Source of the DNA: Bacteroidota bacterium
GTDB taxonomy: Bacteria; Bacteroidota; Bacteroidia; J057; JAJTIE01
Direction: 5' to 3'
NCBI GenBank assembly: GCA_021300195.1
Contig: JAJTIE010000014.1
Span: 1 to 42,940, forward strand
DNA length: 42,940 nucleotides
In this document: piece after piece, positions 4,564-26,875 of the stretch
Position numbering within the stretch: position 1 is the first letter of the stretch
Layout of the letters: each line of letters starts with the position of its first letter
Notes under the pieces: model-generated
Told to the model about the DNA's origin: nothing
The model's input: only the letters and a program-made list of their open reading frames with translations
Databases searched by the model: none
Made by a program: the position numbers and the translations under genes

Positions 4564-5259
4564 ATGGCATCCAAGCTGTCGAAAAAGAGAATCCTGGTTG
4601 TAGACGATGAGCCAGACATCGTGGAGTTTATCGAGTACAACCTGAAGGGGGAGGGCTACGAGGTGTATACCGCCCACGATGGCCTGCAGGCTCTGGAGGT
4701 GGCCAAGGTAGCCAAGCCCGACCTGGTGCTGCTGGACATTATGATGCCCAAGATGGATGGTGTGGAGGCCTGCCGCCGCCTGCGTGAGCTGCCCGAGGCC
4801 CGTCATGCCTACATTGTCTTCCTCACTGCACGGGCAGAAGAGTACAGCGAGTTGGCTGGCTTTGATGCCGGTGCGGACGACTACATCACCAAACCCGTTC
4901 GCCCCCGCGTACTTACCAGCAGGCTGAAGGCCCTCTTTCGCCGGGGAACCGAGGAGGATGCAGTCCAGGAGGCCGGAACCCTGGAGGTAGCCGGCCTGCG
5001 CATTGTACGGGATGAGTTTATTGTATACCGGGGCGATAGCCCCATCAATCTGCCCAAGAAGGAGTTTGAGCTGCTGTACTTCTTGGCCAGTAAGCCTGGC
5101 AAGGTGTTTAGCCGCGAAACCCTGCTCGAAAAAATATGGGGGAACGACGTGTATGTAGTACCCCGTACCATAGACGTGCACATCCGCAAACTGCGCGAAA
5201 AGCTGGGTGAGCAGTATATCCAGACGATCAAGGGCGTTGGCTACAAGTTTGCCGGATGA
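4564..5259 (+). CDS. OmpR/PhoB-family response regulator
   Basis: 231 aa two-component regulator. The receiver domain (about 8-122) has acidic pair D14/D15, phosphoacceptor D58 in LVLLDIMMP, T88 in FLTAR and K110 in ITKPV. The C-terminal winged helix (about 135-230) contains the OmpR-type recognition region TIDVHIRKLREKLG and ends IKGVGYKF. The next gene overlaps by 4 nt (ATGA) and encodes a matching histidine kinase, so they form a coupled pair. The closest general type is PhoB/PhoP, but no phosphate-uptake genes are adjacent and the signal is not identifiable. A 157-nt gene-free leader separates it from the glycosyltransferase. Confidence 0.95.
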   Translation: MASKLSKKRILVVDDEPDIVEFIEYNLKGEGYEVYTAHDGLQALEVAKVAKPDLVLLDIMMPKMDGVEACRRLRELPEARHAYIVFLTARAEEYSELAGFDAGADDYITKPVRPRVLTSRLKALFRRGTEEDAVQEAGTLEVAGLRIVRDEFIVYRGDSPINLPKKEFELLYFLASKPGKVFSRETLLEKIWGNDVYVVPRTIDVHIRKLREKLGEQYIQTIKGVGYKFAG

Positions 5260-6317
5260 GGCCACTTAGGCACCAGACACTTACTACCTTTCTGCTTAGC
5301 CTGTTGCTATCTGCCGGGCTGGCTTGTTTGATCTATTTATACAGCGGACAGCTTCCTTGGCAGCTGGCTGTGGCGTCCTCCGGCCTGGTATTGCTGGTCA
5401 TCGGCCTAGCGCTGGAGGTGCTGCTGTATGGTCCGGCCCGCCGTATGCACCGCCGCCTGCGTACTGCCCTGGGCCGCAATGACGGCGATGGCCCACGGCT
5501 GCACCTGGCACAGCCCCGGGGGAACCCCATCACCGCCCTGTATGGCACCATTCTGAAGGCCACCGGGGCCATGCGGCGCGAGTATGCCGAGCTGCGCAAG
5601 ATCGAGATGTTTCGCCGAGAGTTTCTGGGCGACGTGAGCCACGAGCTAAAGACACCCATCTTTGCCATCCAGGGCTTTATCGAAACCCTGCTGGATGGCG
5701 CACTGGAAGACAAAAAGGTAAACCGCAAGTTTCTGCGCAAGGCACTACGCAATGTGTTTCGCCTGGAGGCACTGGTGCAGGACCTGCTGACCATCAGCCA
5801 GCTGGAGACGGGCGAACTGCGTATGGAGATGACGGAGTTCAAGCCCTACGACCTGGTGCTAGACGTGTTTGAAACCACCACCTACAAGCGCAAAAAGGAG
5901 GGCCAAAAGGCCGAGCTACGCCTCCGCACCAATAACCTGGAGAATCAATACGTAAGGGGCGACCGCGCCCGCATCAGCCAGGTTGTTGAAAACCTGGTAA
6001 ACAATGCCATCCAGTATGGCCGGGATGAGGATGCCTGGGTGGAAGTGGTGCTGGCCATGCGGGGTGCCAACGGTAAGCGCAAGATGGTGATAGAGGTGCG
6101 AGACAATGGCAAGGGCATAGCCGAGGAGCACCTGGAGCACATATTCGAGCGCTTCTATCGCATAGACAAAAGCCGAAGCCGAGAGATGGGCGGCACGGGC
6201 CTGGGCCTCAGTATTGTGAAATACCTGCTGGAGGCACACGGGGAAGAAATAGAAGTGGAGAGCACACTGGACGTAGGCACTACCTTCCGCTTTACCCTGG
6301 CCCCCGTTATTAAGTGA
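5256..6317 (+). CDS. Membrane sensor histidine kinase (PhoR-like)
   Basis: 353 aa partner of the upstream regulator, sharing ATGA with its stop codon. Two transmembrane helices (about 11-29 and 37-58) leave almost no periplasmic loop, so sensing is probably within the membrane or cytoplasmic. The HisKA domain has DVSHELKTP with phosphorylatable H129. The HATPase_c domain shows the N-box VVENLVNNAIQYG, G1 VRDNGKGI, F-box FERFYRID and G2 GGTGLGLSIVKYL. No PAS or HAMP domain is obvious, making it shorter than typical PhoR. All catalytic motifs are intact, unlike the phytochrome kinase at 23942-26266. Confidence 0.94.
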   Translation: MRPLRHQTLTTFLLSLLLSAGLACLIYLYSGQLPWQLAVASSGLVLLVIGLALEVLLYGPARRMHRRLRTALGRNDGDGPRLHLAQPRGNPITALYGTILKATGAMRREYAELRKIEMFRREFLGDVSHELKTPIFAIQGFIETLLDGALEDKKVNRKFLRKALRNVFRLEALVQDLLTISQLETGELRMEMTEFKPYDLVLDVFETTTYKRKKEGQKAELRLRTNNLENQYVRGDRARISQVVENLVNNAIQYGRDEDAWVEVVLAMRGANGKRKMVIEVRDNGKGIAEEHLEHIFERFYRIDKSRSREMGGTGLGLSIVKYLLEAHGEEIEVESTLDVGTTFRFTLAPVIK

Positions 6318-7652: not shown

Positions 7653-8072
7653 ATGATGAAATCCATACTTTTTGCAACGGCCCTGCTAGGACTGGTAGCC
7701 TGCAATTCCCCAAAAGCGAAAACCTCCGCCGAGACAAAGACAAGCGACCGACCGGTACCCGTGCCGAATGGCGGCGCGGTGGAAGTAGTAATCTACAAGA
7801 CCAAACCGGGTATTGCCGATGCCGAGGCGATAGAGAAAGCACGTTCGGTGAACGAATTTATCCGCAGTCAGGATGGCTTTATCCGCCGCACGTTTGGCAA
7901 AACCCGCGAGGGCCAGTGGGTGGATGTAATACAATGGGAGTCGGTAGAGAAGGCACAGGCAATCTTCCAGCGTGCCATGGAGTCGGACGTGCCCAAGCCC
8001 TTCTTAGAAACCATCGATGAGAAGAGCATGACCATTCTGCATGCCGATACGCTGTTTACCCTAACGCGCTAG
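7653..8072 (+). CDS. Small lipoprotein with antibiotic-biosynthesis-monooxygenase-like domain
   Basis: About 139 aa from the ATG at 7653 (ATGs at 7638 and 7656 are also in frame). The N-terminus MMKSILFATALLGLVAC is a lipoprotein signal with lipobox LVAC. After a Lys/Thr-rich linker comes a region of about 95 aa (VEVVIYKTKPG..., GFIRRTFGKTREGQWVDVIQWES) that resembles the dimeric alpha/beta barrel of the ABM family. The W and the GFI pattern fit, but no catalytic residues can be assigned and the enzyme activity is unknown. It is predicted to be anchored in the periplasm or outer membrane. It does not obviously belong to either neighbour's operon. Confidence 0.75.
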   Translation: MMKSILFATALLGLVACNSPKAKTSAETKTSDRPVPVPNGGAVEVVIYKTKPGIADAEAIEKARSVNEFIRSQDGFIRRTFGKTREGQWVDVIQWESVEKAQAIFQRAMESDVPKPFLETIDEKSMTILHADTLFTLTR

Positions 8073-8135
8073 GCCCATACACGGCCATCAGGTGCAGCTT
8101 CTGTTCACGCCCTGCATGGGGTTAGCAGCGGCTGC

Positions 8136-8837
8136 CTAGCTGCCTTTGCCCTGGCTTGCAAAGGGTCTCCACACCGCCAGGGCAGGCGGCTCGGCCGTAA
8201 AGGTGCGCACCTCCTTCAGCGTAGGGTGGGTAATGCGGAGCTGCCGGCTCCACAGGGCAATGGATCGATCGGGCAGGAAGTCCGACTTACCATACTTTAC
8301 GTCCCCCACAATGGGGCAACCCATGGCTGCCAGCTGCACGCGTATCTGGTGCTGGCGGCCGGTGCGTGGCACCACCTCCAGCAGGCTATGGTCTCCTACG
8401 CGTGCCAGCAGCCGGTAGTTCAGCACGGCCTCTTTGGCCCCCTGGCCCGGGTTCTTGTAGGCCCGTACAATGTTCTTGTCGGGTAGTTTGCGTAGCCAGT
8501 GCGTCAGGGTGCCGGTGGTTTCGGGCGGCACACCATGCACCACCGCCCAGTAGGTCTTCTGCACCTGGTGGGCCTGCCAGTCCTTGCTCAGCCGGGCAGC
8601 AGCCTTGCCCGTCTTGGCCAGCAGCTGCACACCCCCCACCGGCCGGTCCAGCCGGTGCAGCAGTGCTAGGTACACCTCCCCGGGCTTGTGGTAGGTTGTT
8701 TTCAGGTAGTCCCGCGCCCAGTCAAACACGCTTTTGTCTCCGCTCTCGTCCCCCTGGCTCAGCATGCCCCCTGGCTTGCACACGGCCAGCAGGTGATTAT
8801 CTTCGTACAGGATGCGGGGGGCTAGGGGGCTTTCCAT
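8136..8837 (-). CDS. RluA-family RNA pseudouridine synthase
   Basis: 233 aa from the ATG at 8837; the frame extends to a TTG at 8852. It isomerises uridine to pseudouridine in rRNA or tRNA. The catalytic-Asp motif appears as LLHRLDRPVGGVQLL, and RTGRQHQIRVQLAAMG plus GCPIVGDVKYG follow as expected for RluA/RluC/RluD. There is no N-terminal S4 domain, so it is of the short RluA/TruC type; the target cannot be deduced. The Asp motif reads RPVGG where many relatives have RDTSG. It is divergent from ccmE and convergent with the lipoprotein gene. Confidence 0.92.
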   Translation of the reverse strand: MESPLAPRILYEDNHLLAVCKPGGMLSQGDESGDKSVFDWARDYLKTTYHKPGEVYLALLHRLDRPVGGVQLLAKTGKAAARLSKDWQAHQVQKTYWAVVHGVPPETTGTLTHWLRKLPDKNIVRAYKNPGQGAKEAVLNYRLLARVGDHSLLEVVPRTGRQHQIRVQLAAMGCPIVGDVKYGKSDFLPDRSIALWSRQLRITHPTLKEVRTFTAEPPALAVWRPFASQGKGS

Positions 8838-23858: not shown

Positions 23859-23900
23859 CGCGGGCTGCCTGTTCATACACATAGGCAGCCCGCGTTTTTT
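23859..23900 (+). terminator. Strong intrinsic terminator after accC
   Basis: A perfect 12-bp stem (CGCGGGCTGCCT at 23859-23870 with AGGCAGCCCGCG at 23883-23894) encloses a 12-nt loop and is followed by six T (23895-23900). It separates accC from the convergent phytochrome gene; the upstream A-rich bases on the opposite strand are too few for clear bidirectional action. Confidence 0.9.
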
Positions 23901-23941
23901 GTCCACTTGTCGTTGCAGTCAGTACACTGCTGCCAGCCTGT

Positions 23942-26266
23942 CTACGCCTCCGGTGGCCGTTCCCACAGGCTAAAGTAGAAGGTGGCTCCCATGTGGGGTT
24001 TGCTCTCGGCCCATATCCGCCCCTTGTGGCGGTGCACAATGCGGTAGGCAGTAGCTAGCCCAATGCCATGGCCGGGATACTTACTATCGTCATGCAGCTG
24101 TCGAAACGGTACAAACAGCTCCTGCATCCGGTGGTCAGAGAAACCAATGCCGTTGTCTTTTAGATAAAACACGGTACGCCCGTTGTGCTCCAGCTTACCA
24201 CAGGATATCTCGGCCACTTCGCGCTCTTGGGTAAACTTCAGGGCATTGCTCAGCAGGTTCTGCATGAGCATTTTCAGCAGGATGGGGTCTCCAATGGTAT
24301 GGAGGTTCTCTTCCATATGCCAGTTGATCTTTCGCTGCGGATACAGGCGCTGCGCATCCATGATTAGCGTACGCATTACCTGTCCCAGGTTTACGGGTTG
24401 CACCTGCATTTGCTGCACATTTAGGCTCGATAGCCTGAGCAGGTGCTCCAGCATATCACTCAGCTGGCCAGCCCGGTTTTTTATGTTTCCAATCAGCTCC
24501 TGCTCGGCCCGCACGTTTTGCAGGGCATCATTGGCGGGTGGGGGGGCTGCCAGTCCATTCTCCAGCTGTTCGGCAAGGCCCCTTATGGCCTGCAGGGGCT
24601 CTTTTAGATCATTGCCTATGCTTTCGGCAAAGGCACGTGCCTCCTCGTGCATAAACTCCAGCTGGGCGGTTTTCTCTTCCAGCTGCATACGCTTGTTCTC
24701 CAGCCGCTGGGCGTGGTGGGCCAACAGCGTTAGCAGCAGGTTTCGGGCCTCCTGGGCCAGGGTTGCTTCCCAGTCAGTCCAGGGTTTGGATTGTCCCTTC
24801 ACCTCTTCCTTCCACTTCGCAAAAGACTTGCGGGGAGACAGCCGAATGCCCGGCTCATCCTCACCCGTTTTTTCTTCCACCTTTGCATGCTGTGGGTCTC
24901 CGCCCCAGTATACGATCTGTGATTGCTCCTTGCGGAAGAACAGCAAGTAAGAATGATCGAAGCTGCTGAGTGGGAGGGCCATGAAGCCAGGCAGCAAAAC
25001 ATCCTCTCGTGTTCTTAGCTGGGGTATATGCTGGCCGCTGTAGGTGGCGAAGAAGTTTGTCGACTTCACCAGCTCGGGTACCCGCTCCATCAGGGCACTC
25101 AGCTGCTCTAGCCTGGGTACGCTGCCCTCATGCGCCTGGCGGTCTCCGTGCACCAGTATGCAGCCATGTGCTTCCATCAGCCCCATTAGCTTGTCCAGCT
25201 CGGCAGAGATGGACGTCCAGTAATTTTCGGTGCGCAGCAGGCGCTCCAGCATGCCAGTCAGGATACTTTTAGACTGGCTCTCGGCCTTCTGCTGGGCTGC
25301 CAGCAGCTTTTCCTTCAGCATGAGGCTAAAGATCTGGCCAATGAGAAGCGCCTTCCGGCGGGCCACCGCCCCCAGGTAGTAGGGGCTGTAGTGGTGGCAG
25401 GCCACCATGCCCCACAGCTCGCCATTCAGGAAGAGGCTAATGACCAGTGTGCCCACTACCCCCATATTGCCCAGGTACTCAATGTGCAGGGGCGATACAG
25501 CCCGCAGAGTGCTCAGGCTCAGGTCCAGTGGCTTTTGGGTGGCCGGGTTTAGCATGGGCACTAGCTGCACGGGGTCGTAGTGTATGTCCGGTATCATGCG
25601 GATTACGTTGCGCCGATACAGCTCGCGTGCCTGGACCGGTATATCCGTGTGCGGATAGTGAATGCCCAAAAAGGGCTGTAGGTCTGCCCGTTTGGCCTCG
25701 GCATAGATCTCGCCATTCCATTCGTGGTCAAACTTGTAGATCATCACCCGGTCATAGCCGGTGATGGATCGGATCTCATCTGCCACGGCCTGGCAAAAGT
25801 GCTGCTCGCCCTCTATGTCTTGCAGGTTTGTAAAAGCCTCATTGAGCTGGCTGAACTGTCCGCCAAACATTTCGTCCGGATCGTAGGCACTGGGCTCCAT
25901 CTCCAGGATAATTAGCCCATCCTGCTGGAACAGGTTGATGTTCCATAGCCCAAAGCGTCCCCAGTCTACATGCGACAGATAATAGGGGGTACCCCCTGCT
26001 CCTTTCTGTACACTATTCAGCGTGCGGTGCAGGAAGTTTATCTGGTCTTCGGAGAGGATGCTGCTGAGGGGGCGGCCCAGCAGGTCTTCGGGGGCCAGGT
26101 GGATATAGCTGCGGGTGTTTCCGCTCACCTGGTTTATCACCAGCGTATCGGCCTCCATGGCTAGCAGCACACCATGGCTCTGGATAAAGCCGGGAATGTG
26201 GATCGGCTCCTTCTCGCAGTTGTGCAGGTCGTACCGTTGCTGCTGTTGTTGTAGCTTTACTCTCAT
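23942..26266 (-). CDS. Bacteriophytochrome with kinase-like output lacking the H-box histidine
   Basis: 774 aa biliverdin-binding photoreceptor. The PAS domain has chromophore cysteine C17 in HNCEKEPIHIPGF. The GAF domain has PHTDIP at 205-210 with D208 (usually PxSDIP) and CHHYSP with H291. The PHY tongue shows PRKSF at 478-482. A coiled segment (about 518-545) leads into a kinase-like module: the H-box reads ESIGNDLKEPLQAI, so the position of the phospho-His is N552 (codon AAT). The HATPase_c motifs are intact: N-box QNLLSNALKF, G1 LKDNGIGF and G2 GHGIGLATAYR. It may bind ATP without autophosphorylating on His, or may control a separate kinase. No response regulator adjoins it. The heme oxygenase gene lies 48 nt upstream in the same orientation. 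The N-terminus has a Q5 run. Confidence 0.93.
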   Translation of the reverse strand: MRVKLQQQQQRYDLHNCEKEPIHIPGFIQSHGVLLAMEADTLVINQVSGNTRSYIHLAPEDLLGRPLSSILSEDQINFLHRTLNSVQKGAGGTPYYLSHVDWGRFGLWNINLFQQDGLIILEMEPSAYDPDEMFGGQFSQLNEAFTNLQDIEGEQHFCQAVADEIRSITGYDRVMIYKFDHEWNGEIYAEAKRADLQPFLGIHYPHTDIPVQARELYRRNVIRMIPDIHYDPVQLVPMLNPATQKPLDLSLSTLRAVSPLHIEYLGNMGVVGTLVISLFLNGELWGMVACHHYSPYYLGAVARRKALLIGQIFSLMLKEKLLAAQQKAESQSKSILTGMLERLLRTENYWTSISAELDKLMGLMEAHGCILVHGDRQAHEGSVPRLEQLSALMERVPELVKSTNFFATYSGQHIPQLRTREDVLLPGFMALPLSSFDHSYLLFFRKEQSQIVYWGGDPQHAKVEEKTGEDEPGIRLSPRKSFAKWKEEVKGQSKPWTDWEATLAQEARNLLLTLLAHHAQRLENKRMQLEEKTAQLEFMHEEARAFAESIGNDLKEPLQAIRGLAEQLENGLAAPPPANDALQNVRAEQELIGNIKNRAGQLSDMLEHLLRLSSLNVQQMQVQPVNLGQVMRTLIMDAQRLYPQRKINWHMEENLHTIGDPILLKMLMQNLLSNALKFTQEREVAEISCGKLEHNGRTVFYLKDNGIGFSDHRMQELFVPFRQLHDDSKYPGHGIGLATAYRIVHRHKGRIWAESKPHMGATFYFSLWERPPEA

Positions 26267-26314
26267 GTTCTATCTCGTTTGGTCGTTGGTTGGCCTGGTT
26301 TTGGCGGGCTATGG

Positions 26315-26875
26315 CTATAGCCAGCCCGCCAGCAGCTGGTAGGTATAGGTGGCGGCAGCGGCTACCTGGTCTGCACTTCCATCGTCTTCGGCTGCTGCCA
26401 GTTTTTGTTGTATTGCCTGCCACAGGCTGTCTGTCTCTTCCTGTGGTTGGTCAAAGTAGTCAAGCTGAATGGGTGGCGTTCGGCTAGCCAGCTGCCTGTG
26501 TATGTGTATGCCACCCAGGCGCGACCCCTCCAGTACATAGAATGCCCCCAGGCCCCAGCCTTTCTGCTTGCGCTCGGGGGGGAGTTCCCAGTCGGGCAGG
26601 GGTGCTTTTTCGTGGCTGCTGCCTATTCGCTTCAGGTCGGCCTCCAGGTCGTGCACGCGCTTGCTGGGCGCATAGTCCATGGGCAGGATGGGCCAGTCTG
26701 TCGACTGGGCAATGTGTGCCTCCAGCACCCGGTGCATGCCATAGTACTTCAGCAGCGTTTTTGTCAGGTCTTCCGCCCTTAGCTCCTTCTGGGCCATCAG
26801 TCTGCCTAGCTCACTTTTTACAAGCGTATCGTGTAGCCCTCTGGTGGTTGTTTTTAGTAATGTGCCAAGTGCCAT
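26315..26875 (-). CDS. Biliverdin-producing heme oxygenase (BphO-like)
   Basis: 186 aa from the ATG at 26875; the frame is open to 26938, but the extra 21 residues are not family-like. Heme oxygenase opens heme to biliverdin, iron and CO. Proximal heme ligand H15 lies in TTRGLHDTLVKSELGRLM, and the distal helix shows AFYVLEGSRLGG, the usual LEGSxLGG motif. It is separated by 48 nt from the phytochrome gene on the same strand, so its role is most likely supply of the chromophore. The 135 nt upstream (to the protease stop at 27011) should hold the promoter, though I see no clear TAnnTTTG box. Confidence 0.9.
   Translation of the reverse strand: MALGTLLKTTTRGLHDTLVKSELGRLMAQKELRAEDLTKTLLKYYGMHRVLEAHIAQSTDWPILPMDYAPSKRVHDLEADLKRIGSSHEKAPLPDWELPPERKQKGWGLGAFYVLEGSRLGGIHIHRQLASRTPPIQLDYFDQPQEETDSLWQAIQQKLAAAEDDGSADQVAAAATYTYQLLAGWL

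Follow-up and report, generated by a model that had tools for sequence, protein, structure and literature searches.

Histidine kinases of the HisKA type require the acceptor histidine of their dimerisation helix for autophosphorylation, as seen in CrdS, whose H371A variant has no kinase activity (PMC3510030). The phosphatase activity of that variant is reduced only modestly, and the equivalent histidine of EnvZ 'is not required but enhances' phosphatase activity (PMC3510030). Among the bacteriophytochromes, DrBphP has no kinase activity and is a light-activated phosphatase that needs ATP and in which a Glu four residues beyond the histidine (H+4) is critical (PMC8292422). Two further proteins lack the acceptor altogether: DivL, which has Tyr for His, is devoid of both kinase and phosphatase activity and acts by binding DivK~P (PMC4211667), and Arabidopsis PHYB, which has no acceptor His, keeps the N, G1, F and G2 boxes and uses its histidine-kinase-related domain (HKRD) as a dimerisation domain (PMC5712524). 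A literature search of open-licence papers for a described His-less bacteriophytochrome turned up only the plant case. Here we report a bacteriophytochrome in which the acceptor position is occupied by Asn.

The window, that is, the whole 42,940-nucleotide stretch of Bacteroidota DNA that was analysed, carries on its minus strand an unbroken open reading frame for this 774-residue protein (Table 1). PAS_2, GAF, PHY and HATPase_c domains are all recovered above their Pfam cut-offs and in this order, HATPase_c with 76.1 bits; the HisKA match, at 22.6 bits, falls under the gathering score of 26.9. The best solved homologue is SaBphP2 (E 2.5e-110, residues 11-771 aligned), and DrBphP and PaBphP are among the solved bacteriophytochromes that align over the entire length of the protein. 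AlphaFold2, run on a 28-sequence alignment, gave a model (mean pLDDT 81.4) in which residue 552 lies within a long helix spanning residues 498-571, and a Foldseek comparison of this model with the PDB returned full-length phytochromes and bacteriophytochromes. In the same alignment, which includes the protein itself, the chromophore-binding C17, the D208-I209-P210 (DIP) motif, the pocket histidine H261 and P478-R479-S481-F482 are invariant; a CHH motif is also present and the PRxSF motif of the tongue reads PRKSF. Hence, light sensing appears intact, and by all sequence tests the protein is a bacteriophytochrome. It lacks, as discussed below, the acceptor His that is a defining feature of sensor histidine kinases and, on this evidence, should not be classed as a functional kinase.

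Table 1. Features of the phytochrome locus, in coordinates of the window
Feature	Coordinates	Strand	Basis
Bacteriophytochrome, 774 aa, PAS_2-GAF-PHY-HisKA-like-HATPase_c	23942..26266	minus	ORF, Pfam, PDB homologues, AlphaFold2/Foldseek
HATPase_c domain with intact N, G1 and G2 boxes	23963..24292	minus	Pfam and alignments
Glu556 codon (H+4), counterpart of the DrBphP phosphatase determinant E536	24599..24601	minus	Alignment; PMC8292422
AAT codon for Asn552, position of the phospho-acceptor His	24611..24613	minus	Sequence and alignments
Cys17 codon, chromophore-binding Cys aligned with the Cys of other bacteriophytochromes	26216..26218	minus	Invariant alignment column
Heme oxygenase (BphO-type)	26315..26875	minus	Pfam Heme_oxygenase, ATG start

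The H-box reads ESIGNDLKEPL, with Asn at residue 552. A preliminary description of this DNA had called the acceptor His absent and had predicted that relatives would carry His at this site, and alignment upheld both points. All 39 other histidine-kinase phytochromes of a 40-sequence alignment have His in the acceptor column; in the same alignment, 61 columns have a conservation of at least 90%, and the protein agrees with 59 of them; it deviates by V187I and H552N, of which only the latter is non-conservative. A wider survey covered 211 distinct phytochromes, drawn from samples of the protein's class and phylum, of the order of genome G377 and of two proteobacterial classes, and from relatives fetched by pattern. 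Here, 139 sequences, the present one counted, have a letter in the acceptor column, and in 136 of them it is His; the three exceptions are the Asn of the present protein, a Val (locus L314) and an Arg (locus L195). Given these counts, the missing His exceeds chance variation, and since the acceptor is replaced, classical autokinase signalling by this protein is very unlikely. The usually conserved positions 543 (L to A, H-9), 548 (Y to E, H-4) and 551 (S to G, H-1) of the helix are also changed, as are position 544 (H-8) and, in helix 2, the usually conserved residue 614 (R to S). These changed neighbours seem mildly to favour an established substitution over an isolated base error, although the dimerisation domain, taken whole, is no outlier (rank 14 of 138).

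The nucleotide-binding half of the output module presents a different picture. The residues N670, N674, D704, G706, G708, G734 and G736 of the N, G1 and G2 boxes are all kept in the 28-sequence alignment, as are all 14 ATP-domain columns conserved at 90% or more in the 40-sequence alignment. The identity of the catalytic domain minus that of the sensor ranks 73 of 138, so that the ATP domain, lying mid-range in this divergence ranking, has diverged no further than those of His-bearing kinases. ATP binding thus appears intact, and the preliminary reading of Cys17, a PAS-GAF-PHY sensor and an intact ATP-binding domain was borne out by both Pfam and the alignment columns. Around the acceptor, D553 (H+1), E556 (H+4) and P557 (H+5) are retained. 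Glu at H+4, present in 57 of 145 aligned phytochromes, is also common among those that bear the His, and so is permissive rather than diagnostic.

The coupling to a heme oxygenase, likewise noted earlier, holds: the product of the upstream gene matches Pfam Heme_oxygenase with 27.3 bits (cut-off 23), and this gene, on the shared strand, terminates 48 nt ahead of the phytochrome start, so the two genes likely lie on one transcript. A sequence search for solved relatives of this heme oxygenase at E 0.001 found none. Among 40 further phytochromes of the class, 32 lie close to a related heme oxygenase (E 1e-13 to 1e-58), so this linkage is typical. A heme oxygenase of its own would provide the bacteriophytochrome with biliverdin. 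At the other end, a GC-rich inverted repeat followed by a T run (23860-23901), likely a terminator, separates the phytochrome from the convergent, plus-strand accC. Insertion of the locus by transfer beside the S41 protease gene was considered and set aside: although the protease gene of the nearest genome stands among other neighbours and has no phytochrome beside it, rearrangement blocks a clean empty-site comparison. The window gave no match to Rfam, and a scan for viral contigs gave none either.

The genome, whose 2.67 Mb are spread over 71 contigs, encodes this phytochrome and no other, together with 22 receiver matches and 24 HATPase_c matches, the latter including gyrase-type proteins. 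The response regulator closest to the phytochrome lies 18.7 kb away (4564-5259) and is paired with a kinase (5256-6317). Besides this OmpR-type regulator (Response_reg and Trans_reg_C) and its HisKA kinase (57.5 bits), no further two-component pair was noted in the window. The preliminary description had seen in the absence of an adjacent regulator a fit to a non-classical output. This argument falls away: among the 40 other loci of phytochromes in the class, a same-strand regulator lies within 100 nt in only 16, and at least 17 phytochromes that retain the His lack any regulator within 1 kb, so that its absence is uninformative, and we reject it as a sign of a special output. Elsewhere in the genome, a single-domain receiver of about 140 residues (G000:C2:89821-90177; 7792-8220, minus strand, in L130) has no HATPase_c match listed nearby; this orphan is a possible partner of the phytochrome.

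The two other exceptions in the survey provide a context for the loss. In L314 (also L347; genome G1661), which belongs to the same class, the H-box reads AVDLRNPI where the His form is AHDLRNPI; its ATP boxes are intact and a gene for an NtrC-type regulator lies about 0.5 kb downstream. A congener, G1674, has a phytochrome (L333/L348) that is 71% identical to L314, keeps the His and has the same NtrC-type regulator at the matching place. L314, like the present protein, is a HisKA-type phytochrome that has lost the His, and unlike it has a downstream regulator and a His-bearing congener. In L195 (also L349; G739:C14) of Rhodospira trueperi, the motif is LSRELRDPL, with His replaced by Arg; here both N-box Asn residues are gone too, unlike in the present protein. 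L195 adjoins a heme oxygenase, and the second phytochrome of that genome retains the His. Loss of the acceptor His is, across the sequences surveyed, rare yet recurrent among phytochromes, and appears to have arisen independently in the present bacterium and these two others. The two cases lower the likelihood that artefact explains such losses in general, though they do not date the loss in the present protein. Relaxed constraint on the output domain after the loss was also considered, and we make no claim of it, as His-bearing clades overlap and the present protein is not outlying: the dimerisation domain of the L314/L333 pair stands at +6.3 against +19.2 in the pooled controls, with several His-bearing clades at +4 to +7 when stratified. 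In a separate observation, two class relatives (L165 and L189) are phytochromes of about 500 residues that end after PHY and have no kinase module, and the order of G377 has many further open frames of 500-560 residues.

With the classical acceptor absent, but both chromophore pocket and ATP-binding domain conserved, the non-classical output proposed in the preliminary description is reasonable; that description left out a phosphatase-type output, as in DrBphP (PMC8292422), which is the best backed biochemically. Our leading reading, at a tentative probability of roughly 0.42, is that the protein may be a light-gated, ATP-dependent phosphatase for, or binder of, a response regulator phosphorylated by another kinase. 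The output module with Asn552 would be unable to autophosphorylate, yet would still dimerise, bind ATP and dock a response regulator; in one light state it would promote the dephosphorylation of the regulator phosphorylated by the other kinase, or sequester it. This reading is based on the retention of Asp at H+1, Glu at H+4, Pro at H+5 and the conserved ATP site, and draws support from the behaviour of DrBphP, CrdS and EnvZ described above and from L314, which with Val for His retains its ATP boxes and the NtrC-type regulator of its His-bearing congener. We infer, rather than show, that autokinase activity has been lost, that the protein binds ATP, that it docks a regulator and dephosphorylates it, and which partner, if any, would be involved. 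Against the phosphatase stand other mutants of the acceptor, PleC H610A (PMC3510030) and HK853 H260A (PMC5727384), in which phosphatase activity is lost or lowered; that no partner regulator can be named and that H-1, H-4, H-8 and H-9 of the helix are also changed likewise count against it.

The binding half of this behaviour could also be all that there is. Like DivL as described above, the protein may be a pseudokinase without phosphate chemistry that holds on to either a phosphorylated regulator or some other kinase and exerts allosteric control over it, light altering the grip. The acceptor is gone, the fold (as modelled) and the docking helix remain, and the receiver and HATPase_c matches of the genome mean that possible partners exist; however, DivL binds ATP weakly (PMC4211667), whereas the ATP site is conserved here, and no partner kinase gene adjoins the phytochrome. 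We regard this as unlikely, though worth serious consideration. Improbable too is a recent inactivation or an assembly error, by which the true or recently ancestral codon would be His and Asn552 would carry no functional meaning. CAT and AAT differ by a single base, the gene is known from one assembly, and almost all of the highly conserved columns are otherwise intact (2 of 61 deviate). Further, among the 22 genomes searched in its order, a PHY domain was found in only one other, in a divergent protein whose sensor is 24% identical; the order thus offers no close orthologue by which to date the loss, and if the loss were very recent the conserved ATP site would be uninformative on function. 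On the other hand, the rest of the gene is intact and the heme oxygenase retained, the usually conserved positions 543, 548, 551 and 614 differ as well, and a separate His-to-Val case stands in an intact gene of another genome.

There is little to recommend an output of the plant type, in which the module would be mainly a platform for dimerisation and protein interactions, without phosphate chemistry on a regulator. The PHYB precedent, with its boxes kept and its His lost, speaks for it, but the Asp at H+1 and Pro at H+5 are retained as in active bacterial modules. Also to its detriment, no bacterial counterparts of the signalling partners of plant phytochromes are known. Finally, an unusual kinase, phosphorylating itself at some other residue or, within a mixed dimer, the His of a different kinase, is very improbable despite the intact ATP-binding domain, as a search of the helix found no alternative His at a conserved or plausible position (the column of H540, at H-12, usually has N or Y) and the genome offers no second phytochrome for pairing.

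More generally, we would suggest, with more doubt than conviction, that phytochromes that lose the His and keep the ATP domain, such as this one (His to Asn) and that of G1661 (His to Val), might constitute a recurrent functional class in bacteria, namely kinase-free light-gated phosphatases or regulator-binders that have lost the same residue as plant phytochromes. The loss of the acceptor His is one of the steps separating plant phytochromes from the bacterial kinase phytochromes, and the present protein, with its intact ATP site, and the Val/His pair of G1661 and G1674 make the remaining function of such modules testable. By itself the present protein is of moderate interest, to which the congener pair differing at the acceptor residue adds. 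Were the phosphatase reading true, it would offer optogenetics a kinase-free light switch of natural origin.

Placed beside the known systems, the protein shares with the classical HisKA phytochromes Agp1, SaBphP2 and PsBphP the domain order, the Cys, the PAS-GAF-PHY core and an intact ATP-binding domain, and differs in having Asn where they have the acceptor His. With DrBphP of Deinococcus radiodurans (PMC8292422) it shares the fold, the Glu at H+4 and the ATP domain; kinase activity is absent there and predicted to be absent here. In DrBphP, however, the His is kept and the acidic H+1 residue lost, whereas here the H+1 Asp is kept and the His lost, and DrBphP acts on DrRR, while the present protein has no regulator nearby. 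DivL of Caulobacter (PMC4211667) likewise has a HisKA-type kinase fold with the His replaced, but it is no phytochrome, has Tyr rather than Asn and binds ATP weakly. The HKRD of plant phytochrome B (PMC5712524), like the present module, has no acceptor His and keeps all of the ATP-binding boxes; unlike the bacterial protein, phytochrome B has an extra pair of PAS domains and a nuclear signalling role. Of all these, it is the plant phytochromes that are the closest analogue.
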